Source of the DNA: Halichondria panicea
Taxonomy: Eukaryota > Porifera > Demospongiae > Suberitida > Halichondriidae
Assembly (NCBI RefSeq): GCF_963675165.1
Contig: NC_087381.1
Coordinates: 1,984,001 to 2,048,000, forward strand
DNA: 64,000 nt
Direction: 5' to 3'
Below the pieces are notes generated by a model. It was not told where the DNA came from, ran no database searches, and worked only from the letters and a program-made list of their open reading frames with translations. A program made the position numbers and the translations under genes. Numbering within the stretch: position 1 is the first letter of the stretch; every line of letters begins with the position of its first letter. This document shows, one piece after another, positions 1,309-59,975 of this stretch.

Positions 1309-1586
1309 TCAACCAATAGACAGAGTTGCAGCATCAGAGACGACTGATCCCGCACTGTTGGTCACAACAACTGTGTAATCTCCAGCATCGCCAGACTCAA
1401 CATTGATAATCTGCAGGGTGGATGAATTGGATCCTTCGATGTCTCCGTCGACGTCAGTGAGAGCGTTCCCGCCAGGACCAAACCACTGGTAGCTCAATCC
1501 TTCACCAGAGGCTTCCACGGTGAATGTGGCAGTTCCACCCGCTTTCGCAGTATTCACATCGCTCGGCTGTACGTCAATTGCAGGAC
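1309..1586 (-). CDS. Ig-like exon, possible terminal exon (unit 1 tail, Ig-A)
   Basis: Counterpart of 3,247-3,522. Where the other Ig exons have GGTGAG (donor), this one has GGTTGA, so in frame it ends LSIG followed by TGA. It is therefore a candidate last coding exon. The alternative is a weak GTTGAA donor at 1,313. Confidence 0.65.
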
Positions 1587-4500
1587 CTGTACACAAAGGC
1601 AAGTAAAGCATGAACATGCACGCCCGCCACACAGACACAAACTGAGCCGTAAGAATATAGGCATGTTTCAAATCTCACCAATAGACAGACTTGCAGCATC
1701 AGAGGTGACTGATCCCACACTGTTGGTCACAACGACCGTGTAGTCTCCCGCATCGCCAGGCTCAGCGTTGAAAACTGTCAACGTTCCTGAAGTGGACCCC
1801 TCAATCTCTCCGTCACTGTCAGTCAGAGCCACTCCACCAGGACCATAGGTCAGTCCTGCACCAGAGGCCTCCACGGTGAATGAGGCACTTCCGCCTTGCT
1901 CGACACCCACACTCTCTGGTTGGGTCTCAATTTCAGGGGCTACATAGAGTGAGTATGAAACGATCAGCAATTGAACACTCAGCATTACTTGTTTGGCACA
2001 AACAATGGAAGGGATTCACCACCGAGTCGACCATAATCAACTGGACCGCTCACCCACTTTTTAGAGGCTCAACTGCTACGCTGCTATCAGCGGTGCACAC
2101 ACATGCAGTTACGTTGAGGAGGATTGAACTTAGTTTACACTCTATAATTGTAGTTTACACGGCCATGACGTACGTACTACAAACAAGGGGAACGACACAT
2201 TCACTATAATATACTAAAATGTTTAACGCATGCTGCCCACACCCACTTAATTTGGTACGAACTCAAGAAACGGCTCGGCCAGGGTGAATATACATTTACC
2301 TGTGGTTGTGATTGTAATGGTTGACGTGAAACCAGCTCCATCCGCTGGATCGGTTGCACTGATGACAATGGTCTGGCTTCCTGAAGCTCCAGCAACAGAC
2401 ACAAAGAACGGGAATTGTCCACCTGCATGCAAACAGAAACAATGCGTCAATCACACGAGACCAACAAACGATGGATGAAGGCATGCAGCAGAGACACCAA
2501 AACTCACATCCTTCTGTTACTGATGAATCATTGAAGCTGCACTCAAAGTCCAAGCCGTCGAGATCCCTACTTGACGTGCAGCTCACACTCACTTGCTGAG
2601 ACTCAGCGAGGAACTCGGCACTGCAGTTCAGGATCAGAGGAGCAAGTGTGGGACCTTGGGTAGGTTGAGCTGCATGTGTGGAAAGGGGAACGTTTGACTA
2701 GCACACACTGACTATTATTATATCCTTCCGAAAACCACACGTATAATTACACACTAGCAAGAATATAATTGCACTTGAACCGTATAAAAATAGGCATGTT
2801 TCAATCTCTCACCAATAGACAGAGTTGCAGCATCAGAGACGACTGATCCCGCACTGTTGGTCGCAACGACTGTGTAGTCTCCCGCATCGCCAGAGTCAAC
2901 ATTGATAATTCGAAGAGTGGCTGTAGCGGACCCCTCAACCTTTTTGTCTCTGTTAGTCAAAGCGTTCCCACCAGGACCAAACCACTGGTAGGTCAGTGCT
3001 AATCCAGAGGCTTTTACAGTGAACGTGGCAGTTCCACCTGCTTCCACATTGACATTGTTTGGTTGTACATCAATTTTAGGCCCTGTTCAAATTAAATGCC
3101 TGCCATGTACACAAACAAATCAGATGAACTCACAAATAGAAATTTCCACACTCTCTGGTTGAGACCTAATCACAGGAGAGCTTCGCCTGAATCCGATATT
3201 TGCACATAATAAATAACCTTGCACCGTAAAGATATGGTAATCTCACCAATAGACAGAGTTGCAGCATCAGAGACGACTGATCCCGCACTGTTGGTCACAA
3301 CGACTGTGTAATCTCCAGCATCGCCAGACTCAACATTGATGATTTGCAGGGTGGATGAATTGGATCCTTCGATGTCTCCGTCAACGTCAGTGAGAGCGTC
3401 CCTACCAGGACCAAACCACTGGTAGCTCAACAGTCCTTCACCAGAGGCTTCCATGGTGAATGTGGCAGTTCCACCCGCTTCCGCAGTATTCACATCACTC
3501 GGTTGTACATCAATTGCAGGACCTGTACACAAAGGCAAGTAAAGCATGAACATGCCCGTCACACAGACACAAACTGAGCCAAGAATATAGGCATGTTTCA
3601 AATCTCACCAATAGACAAACTTGCAGCATCAGAGGTGACTGATCCCGCACTGTTGGTCACAACGACCGTGTAGTCTCCCGCATCGCCAGGCTCAGCGTTG
3701 AAAACTGTCAACGTTCCTGAAGTGGACCCCTCAATCTCTCCGTCACTGTCAGTCAGAGCCACTCCGCCAGGACCAAACCACTGGTAGGTCAGTCCTGCAC
3801 CAGAGGCCTCCACGGTGAATGAGGCACTTCCGCCTTGCTCGACACCCACACTCTCTGGTTGGGTCTCAATTTCAGGGGCTACATAGAGTGAGTAGTGAAA
3901 CGATCAGCACTGAACTCAGCATTGCTTGTTTAGCACGAACAATGGAAGGGATTAACCACCGAGTCGACCATAATCAACTGGACCGCTCACCCACTTTTTA
4001 GAGGCTCAACGTGCTATGCTGCTATCAGCGGTGCACATGCACACATGCAGTTACGTTGAGGAGGATCGAGCTTAGTTTACACTCTATAATTGTAGTTTAC
4101 ACGGCCATGACGTACGTACTACGATAAACACAAACAAGGGGAATGACACTTTCACTATACTAAAAAGTTTAACGCATGCTCACATGCACGCATGCACTCA
4201 ATTTGTACTAACTCAAGAAACAGCTTGGCCAGGGTGTATATACTAATTTACCTGTGATTGTGATTGTAATGTTTGACGTGAAACCCGCTCCATCAGCTGA
4301 ATCAGTTGCACTGATGACAATGGTATGGCTTCCTGAAGCTCCAGTGACAGACACAAAGAATGGGAATTGTCCACCTGCATCCAAACAGAAACAATGCATC
4401 AATCACACGAGACCAACAAACGATGGATGAAGGCATGCAGCAGAGACAGCAAACTCACATCCTTCTGTTACTGATTCATTATTGAAGCTGCACTCAAAAT

Positions 4501-59742: not shown

Positions 59743-59840
59743 CTGTAGAGAACAATGAAAAACTTTAATGAACGATTGGTGTGTACCGAGCACTTTTATG
59801 CAAACATAATGTGGGTATCGAATCCAGGTTGAACACTTAC

Positions 59841-59975
59841 TGTAGCAGTTAAGGCATTTCTTTTGACGACCTTGTCCATAAGATAACCCTCCACCAGGAA
59901 CACAGCAGCCTGACAAAGTGGCAGGAAATGCATCAACCTCATCACCACGGCAATCGAGAGAGGAAAAACATGATC
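59841..59975 (-). CDS. Unit 3 Cys-rich exon upstream of IgGFc domain
   Basis: 135 nt, two codons longer than in units 1 and 2: [38 protein letters not shown]. All pattern cysteines are kept. Confidence 0.6.

Follow-up and report, generated by a model that had tools for sequence, protein, structure and literature searches.

A candidate tandem family of secreted mosaic proteins with common IgGFc-binding and Calx-beta heads and divergent tails in the sponge Halichondria panicea

What kind of protein is encoded by neighboring genes that begin alike and end differently? The question is raised by a stretch of 64,000 nucleotides from the sponge Halichondria panicea (C5:1,984,001-2,048,000 in a genome of 131 Mb in 39 contigs), hereafter the window, in which three units on the minus strand share a head composed of a cysteine-rich (Cys) exon, an IgGFc-binding (IgGFc) exon and Calx-beta exons, each head being followed by a different tail. 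As read from the sequence, the window is probably part of a new tandem family of large secreted mosaic proteins that would serve in adhesion or recognition and evolve by the exchange of exons. Positions in kb that carry no contig name are window coordinates and may lie beyond its borders.

Common heads and divergent tails

A preliminary description of the window had listed three head modules in tandem, which holds within its borders according to Pfam and similarity searches but not for the total count, since eight heads lie in tandem and all on the minus strand between C5:1,961,066 and 2,099,091 (~140 kb). Their IgGFc exons are located near 113.7, 74.9, 67.5, 58.3 (unit 3), 42.0 (unit 2), 20.7 (unit 1), -3.9 and -22.9 kb, three of them inside the window. 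We distinguish five long units (113 kb, 42 kb or unit 2, 20.7 kb or unit 1, -4 kb and -23 kb) from three short ones (58 kb or unit 3, 67.5 kb and 75 kb). Cys and IgGFc exons are present in all eight heads, and PF17517 exceeded its cut-off in each of them, the E values for IgGFc_binding being 7e-55 in unit 3 and 1e-55 in unit 2; the Cys-rich exon of unit 3 had no Pfam match. Calx-beta domains, each split over two exons, number two per short unit and four in units 1 and 2, and 6 of these 8 Calx-beta exons were seen in the other three long units (113, -4 and -23 kb). When the exon pairs of unit 1 were joined, three of four passed the Pfam cut-off for Calx-beta (E values of 4.5e-16, 3.1e-13, 2.3e-4 [below cut-off] and 3.7e-12). 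The head composition proposed earlier (Cys, IgGFc, Calx-beta) is therefore correct, but it missed a signal-peptide exon upstream of six of the eight heads (113.7, 74.9, 42.0, 20.7, -3.9 and -22.9 kb). A seventh copy of this exon is found at 139 kb, upstream of the body (131-134 kb) of a headless ninth-unit remnant that spans 128-139 kb and contains Calx, sushi and SRCR pieces.

The protein sequences of the eight heads are 84-100% identical to that of unit 3, whereas the closest IgGFc exon from elsewhere in the genome reaches 34%, which indicates a recent private expansion. The recent duplication that had been suspected is likewise evident from DNA identities of 90.6-95.2% over 1.6-4 kb in the window, and it extends beyond it. 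Genome-wide, 122 IgGFc matches were obtained (132 candidates, all scored), many of them clustered.

Tail modules were counted by tblastn. The 113 kb unit carries 27 sushi and 28 Ig modules, and unit 1 has 14 sushi modules and one partial copy followed by 5 Ig modules. The tail of the -4 kb unit consists of 19 sushi, FN3-FN3-SRCR, sushi and again FN3-FN3-SRCR, and the tails of unit 2 and the -23 kb unit share the order of 3 sushi, FN3-FN3-SRCR, more sushi, a Calx-like exon, sushi and SRCR; for the 58, 67.5 and 75 kb units, the tblastn searches found no tail module. The tails outlined in the preliminary description (sushi then Ig in unit 1; sushi, FN3 and SRCR in unit 2, to which further sushi must be added; none in unit 3) were recovered in this way, and the pattern of constant heads with variable tails continues outside the window. 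SRCR occurs together with sushi in three of the eight units (42, -4 and -23 kb; Pfam for one). All exon types named (IgGFc_binding, Calx-beta, sushi, SRCR, fn3 and I-set) were matched by Pfam profiles, with E values of 1e-29 for SRCR and of 6e-12 and 2e-10 for fn3 in unit 2.

The ends of the tails are informative. In the Ig tails of unit 1 and the 113 kb unit, 33 Ig exons were listed, and a GT (in two cases GC) follows each of them but the final exon of either unit, where a stop codon has taken the place of the donor (LSIG-TGA). SRCR tails end in PDTK-stop (unit 2 and -23 kb) or VRCMA-stop (-4 kb). A stop codon right behind the last module, with no membrane segment, is found in five of five long tails, including all three that carry SRCR, and the encoded proteins therefore look secreted. 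In the 75 kb short unit, a stop is reached after the last Calx exon if the latter is unspliced. A transmembrane tail of unit 2, composed of a hydrophobic open reading frame (ORF) at 27.8-27.9 kb and a Tyr-rich ORF at 26.6-26.9 kb, was considered and rejected, as unit 2 stops earlier, after SRCR; further hydrophobic ORFs downstream of units lie beyond the stop codons, and whether alternative splicing reaches them was not checked. The features of the window are as follows.

1309..3876, minus: unit 1, five Cys-free Ig exons, the last with LSIG-TGA in place of the splice donor
5729..13989, minus: unit 1, sushi exons, 14 full and 1 partial (Pfam matches)
14149..20487, minus: unit 1, Calx-beta region, four domains of two exons each
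20350-20487 + 19969-20184 and 19659-19790 + 19301-19501, minus: unit 1, Calx-beta domains 1 and 2
18217-18354 + 16053-16297 and about 15.75-15.89 kb + 14149-14328, minus: unit 1, Calx-beta domains 3 and 4
20683..22089, minus: unit 1, IgGFc_binding exon, canonical donor lost through a 10-bp deletion
22179..22304, minus: unit 1, Cys-rich exon
23290..23364, minus: unit 1, signal-peptide exon, hydrophobic core shortened, read as a phase 1 end before GTGAGT
24265..24509, minus: broken Ig remnant between units 1 and 2
28573..29476, minus: unit 2, terminal SRCR in two pieces, ending in LPTPDTK-stop, first half apparently frameshifted
30029..33037, minus: unit 2, sushi, sushi, Calx-like half exon, sushi
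34250..35508, minus: unit 2, FN3; FN3 with first half of SRCR; second half of SRCR (Pfam)
35671..36705, minus: unit 2, three sushi exons
37977..41828, minus: unit 2, Calx-beta exons
42049..43458, minus: unit 2, IgGFc_binding exon, open, donor present (Pfam)
43548..43673, minus: unit 2, Cys-rich exon
45577..45663, minus: unit 2, signal-peptide exon
46598..46824, minus: broken Ig remnant between units 2 and 3
50691..58197, minus: unit 3, two Calx-beta domains (58060-58197 + 57733-57930; 52013-52147 + 50691-50891)
58346..59755, minus: unit 3, IgGFc_binding exon, open, weakened donor GTTAGT (Pfam)
59839..59970, minus: unit 3, Cys-rich exon

The Ig pieces at 24.3-24.5 and 46.6-46.8 kb were rejected as tails, being broken pieces between units, and so were the ORFs at 26.6-26.9 and 48.8-49.2 kb, which are broken or orphan and lie between units; the Tyr-rich orphan ORF occurs only at 26642-26917 and 48770-49187, the second copy being broken. 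Self-matches revealed a short tandem repeat with units of ~80 bp inside unit 1 (16610-17030). A repeat with a helicase-like fragment is present at about 43.8-44.5 kb and at -1.3 to -2.0 kb; its GYGKSLCY motif may be RecQ-like.

Exon phase and selection

Module exons mostly begin and end in phase 1, with matching AG and GT. Phases were counted for domain copies covering at least 85% of the seed, and shorter copies were dropped here as well as from the selection analysis. A shared phase-1 acceptor and donor was observed at both ends in 8/8 copies each of CalxA, CalxB, CalxG and Cys, in 6/6 of CalxF, 4/4 of FN3b and 3/3 of SushiE. Acceptor and donor were in phase 1 in 28/28 and 27/28 copies of SushiA, 5/5 and 4/5 of SushiB, 28/33 and 31/33 of Ig, 22/36 and 35/36 of SushiD, and 1/3 and 2/3 of SushiC (AG being present in 22/36 SushiD and 1/3 SushiC copies); for IgGFc, the donor was in phase 1 in seven of eight. 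Automatic splice choice gave other phases for the incoming side of CalxC and IgGFc, the outgoing side of CalxD, CalxE and FN3a, and the orphan ORF, and CalxC, CalxE and the acceptor of IgGFc are in phase 1 when read by eye. The automatic acceptor of SRCR is not meaningful, because FN3a and the first half of SRCR share one exon. Since such exons are symmetric (phase 1-1), gain, loss or exchange of a module keeps the reading frame.

The ratio of nonsynonymous to synonymous divergence (dN/dS) was determined between paralogues, not alleles. Medians were 0.30 for IgGFc, 0.29 for Ig, 0.37 for SushiA, 0.31 for SushiD and 0.29 for Cys, and in small classes 0.87 for FN3b, 0.68 for SushiB, 0.64 for SushiC and 0.76 for SushiE. 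Pairs with a ratio above 1 numbered 0/21 for IgGFc, 0/486 for Ig, 5/377 for SushiA, 1/622 for SushiD, 3/10 for SushiB, 1/6 for FN3b and 2/28 for CalxE. The IgGFc values are based on seven of the eight heads, the 67.5 kb head being dropped because its match extended into the upstream intron and met a stop there, and a frameshift in the 75 kb head inflates its dN. Diversifying selection was not found in the heads or in the large Ig and sushi classes by this paralogue comparison, and the purifying selection on the heads (dN/dS of about 0.3) does not support hypervariable recognition.

This result bears on the idea of an allorecognition locus, at which tails that vary among individuals would determine whether sponge tissues fuse or reject each other. 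The clustering of duplicated genes whose near-identical arrays readily change in copy number would suit such a locus, as would the Calx-beta domain, a module of aggregation factors whose gene cluster is tied to allorecognition in Amphimedon (available part of the review PMC10815962). The dN/dS well below 1 in the heads and the large Ig and sushi classes, as measured between paralogues only, and the failure to find a VWD match in the cluster speak against it, and we regard this explanation as improbable.

Unequal divergence and a second cluster

Adjoining exons of the same head have diverged to very different degrees. Between short and long units, the IgGFc exon is 93.8-97.4% identical and the adjoining CalxG exon 74.6-79.0%, a difference that held in all 12 comparisons made (Fisher p between 4e-9 and 2e-16); median dS is 0.77 for CalxG versus 0.13 for IgGFc. 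The simplest reading of this contrast would be a homogenization of the IgGFc exon between units. The 113 kb unit is an outlier in IgGFc (89-91% to all others), yet its CalxG exon is 97-99% identical to those of three long units, and this conflict has a p value of 0.005 or less in three of four comparisons (p 0.76 for the fourth, with the -23 kb unit). Between unit 1 and the 75 kb unit, identity amounts to 98.3% over 2 kb, with a 286-bp stretch at 100%, and within the 113 kb unit Ig blocks of 2.15 kb are 98.3-99.8% and sushi pairs 90.4-98.5% identical. Near-identical blocks and unequal identities appear as signs of unequal crossing-over and gene conversion, and differential loss can account for part of the mosaic pattern.

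Another explanation is that the genes encode structural proteins of matrix or mucus and that tail variation is mostly neutral turnover of arrays. A secreted multidomain build, purifying selection, homogenized arrays and damaged copies would all be expected of such proteins, and we consider them possible but short of an even chance; that the tails differ in module type and not in length alone speaks against this explanation.

The Ig arm leads to a second cluster on contig C1. A search with the unit 1 Ig exon gave 324 candidates, 150 of which were scored. The 150 matches listed comprise 33 in the cluster under study, 15 at C1:16.35-16.47 Mb and a single one at C5:3.53 Mb, which leaves about 100 for C1:6.379-6.445 Mb. 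Over 3.9 kb, C1:6,441,252-6,445,163 is 96.1% identical in DNA sequence to 86.3-90.2 kb, and C1:6,437,001-6,439,544 is 93.9% identical to 93.0-95.5 kb over 2.6 kb, introns included. The genome-wide IgGFc search found no match near this C1 cluster, where a Cys exon and Calx-like exons lie upstream of the Ig array; Pfam supports only one of the latter, weakly and below the cut-off (E 0.03). By eye, the Cys exon of C1 is similar to that of the heads (CC, LSY, C-x-x-C), but in a tblastn search (E up to 0.05) its only match was a block at 93.7-93.8 kb, with none among the Cys exons of the heads. A Reeler head on C1 is not claimed, as Pfam gave 20.2 bits, under the cut-off of 21, and the adjoining exon had no match.

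Both canonical Ig cysteines are absent in 32 of 33 segments of the region that span both positions, and one segment has a single one. Bacterial relatives of the Ig exon were found at 28 loci with 31-47% identity, 11 of which are assigned to Verrucomicrobiota from their record titles; both cysteines are absent in 37 of 62 bacterial segments, and one is present in 25. The top three PDB matches of the Ig exon include an 'immunoglobulin-like domain protein', a tail protein and titin. These bacterial-like Cys-free modules occupy 1312-3876 of the window and 78.2-95.9 kb outside it, and a bacterial origin is possible. A far-reaching scenario would be a modular secreted recognition system in which phase 1-1 arms, including the Cys-free bacterial-type Ig, are exchanged between the IgGFc-headed C5 cluster and the Cys-Calx-Ig cluster of C1, so that every individual would recognize cells or microbes with a particular set of arms, but we think this unlikely.

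Known systems and the possible role

Three known systems invite comparison. Sponge aggregation factors consist of Calx-beta, VWD and Wreath. The cluster resembles this family in its occurrence in a sponge, clustered genes, Calx-beta domains and secreted build, and it differs by IgGFc, sushi, SRCR, FN3 and Ig. Of 21 VWD matches genome-wide, none falls into C5:1.934 to 2.126 Mb, although an exon-by-exon search may miss weak matches. By VWD, the one defining feature tested, the cluster is not an aggregation factor, Calx-beta being present. At C2:269-278 kb, an array of closely similar Calx-beta domains spaced by about 405 bp marks a possible aggregation-factor-like gene. In FCGBP, VWD-C8-TIL repeats follow the head. 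The likeness to FCGBP and other IgGFc-binding proteins lies in an IgGFc_binding domain near the N terminus of a secreted-type protein, whereas here Calx-beta and sushi follow the head, with no VWD match; C8 and TIL are absent from the Pfam matches of part of the window frames, and no search by name was made. The Geodia aggregation receptor is an SRCR/SCR protein, a type with a transmembrane segment and a cytoplasmic tail. The cluster shares with sponge SRCR/SCR proteins the combination of SRCR with sushi and FN3 and the tandem duplication, reported for sponge SRCR genes in the available part of PMC10855680, and differs from them by its IgGFc and Calx-beta head and by SRCR tails that stop without a membrane segment; the text of that paper contains no occurrence of Calx or IgGFc.

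Parts of the picture have been described elsewhere. In the available portions of the respective papers, a figure legend on Halichondria panicea receptors names domains including IgGFc-binding, Calx-beta and sushi, and receptor expression is individual-specific (PMC8242945), SRCR is combined with FN3 or sushi in two sponges (PMC6208332), and a Calx-beta gene takes part in a sponge response (PMC11229196). The earlier statement that no family with this order is known fits the literature searches, none of which yielded such a family; this is weak evidence of absence, most subscription papers and all bioRxiv preprints being outside their coverage.

Elsewhere in the genome, seven other IgGFc places were sampled. 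A distant IgGFc lineage at C5:7.15-7.17 Mb has the order IgGFc, sushi, Calx-beta and more sushi, so that the IgGFc-Calx-sushi combination is not confined to the cluster; sushi modules supported by Pfam come after IgGFc at C1:15.06 Mb and at C5:6.24 Mb, an SRCR match lies beside IgGFc at C3:4.03 Mb, and weak sushi matches were obtained at C11:2.15 Mb and C5:7.19 Mb. These IgGFc-sushi genes are alike in that the IgGFc exon precedes sushi exons, one lineage adding Calx-beta, and differ in that their heads are 26-34% identical to unit 3; nine stretches examined had no clear match to the Cys exon. Among the loci examined, long FN3/SRCR and Ig tails are joined to such heads only in this cluster. Large clusters with dozens of IgGFc exons and Calx-beta clusters between them are located at C1:14.6-17.7 Mb. 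Beyond this genome, none of 78 candidate stretches for the IgGFc exon in genome_contigs and none of 27 in viral_contigs was confirmed, and a sequence search against PDB gave one match (E 0.59).

The sponge nature of the genome is reflected by a degenerate pattern of the silicatein active-site motif, which occurs at three places (backward control, none). It is spelled at two places on C2 (659 kb and 668 kb, 8.8 kb apart), and the C5 place has Arg for Ser. One of the two C2 places reads CGASYAFSAMGALEG, and for its 40-residue exon silicatein alpha was the best PDB match (E 1.4e-11), before cathepsins, among the best 60 of 88 matches. A silicatein-like gene indicates a siliceous sponge, and probably a demosponge.

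Secreted microbe-binding proteins, opsonin-like or in mucus, would explain several of these findings: SRCR appears with sushi and FN3 in sponge receptor surveys (available parts of PMC8242945 and PMC6208332), many of the IgGFc matches counted above are clustered, and the IgGFc-sushi order recurs, with Pfam matches, at C1:15.06, C5:6.24 and C5:7.15-7.17 Mb. Purifying selection speaks against this explanation, which seems to us possible but less likely than not.

Several observations weigh against a family of large secreted mosaic proteins. The joining of exons within a unit is deduced from splice sites and phase. The IgGFc exon of unit 1 has lost its donor through the 10-bp deletion, that of unit 3 has the weak donor GTTAGT, and the alignment shows a frameshift near the IgGFc start of the 75 kb unit, which confirms the exon decay noted in the preliminary description. 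No signal-peptide exon of this family was recognizable upstream of the 58 and 67.5 kb heads, and with three damaged heads in addition, part of the array may be dead. The three short units cluster together in the IgGFc tree (support 96/98) and also in that of CalxG, and their evidence is therefore one of unequal divergence and not of conflicting branching; exons may moreover differ in rate. The Ig region of the 113 kb unit contains, at 90.7-93.8 kb, a Cys-Calx block related to that of C1. The Cys exon of this block is nearly identical to a second C1 copy, and its last Calx exon has GTTTGT versus GTAAGT in the C1 copy, giving a stop if unspliced; the 113 kb unit may therefore be two genes or a composite one. 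The IgGFc locus at C4:2.88 Mb has no tail module in the 13 kb examined. Finally, the AlphaFold model of the IgGFc exon (14 sequences) was weak (predicted local distance difference test 63, predicted template modeling [TM] score 0.69), and no conclusion was drawn from it; of the 1258 PDB matches that Foldseek returned up to E 10, none reached E 0.001, and the query TM was 0.15 or less in the best 50 of these.

Taken to the extreme, the lesions in three of eight heads, the two missing signal-peptide exons and the broken Ig remnants could mean that the array is mostly decaying duplicated DNA with few real genes. Five of the eight heads in which no lesion was seen, dN/dS of about 0.3 and dozens of open module exons with splice sites are at odds with this possibility, to which we give little credence.

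In the preferred reading of a secreted mosaic family, all exons of one unit would be joined in a single transcript, and the proteins would be secreted into matrix or mucus. The IgGFc/Calx head might then represent a common scaffold, on which sushi, Ig and SRCR arms may bind ligands of the matrix, of other sponge cells or of microbes, and unequal crossing-over and gene conversion would retune the length and content of the arms. A role in adhesion or recognition is thus a natural guess and not a result. The genes of sponge adhesion and of self/non-self recognition are known only in part, and the cluster unites modules that had each been described in a separate context, namely the Calx-beta domain of aggregation factors, the modules of sponge SRCR/sushi proteins and those of IgGFc proteins, and it bears traces of an exchange of modules both at exon borders and with a second contig.

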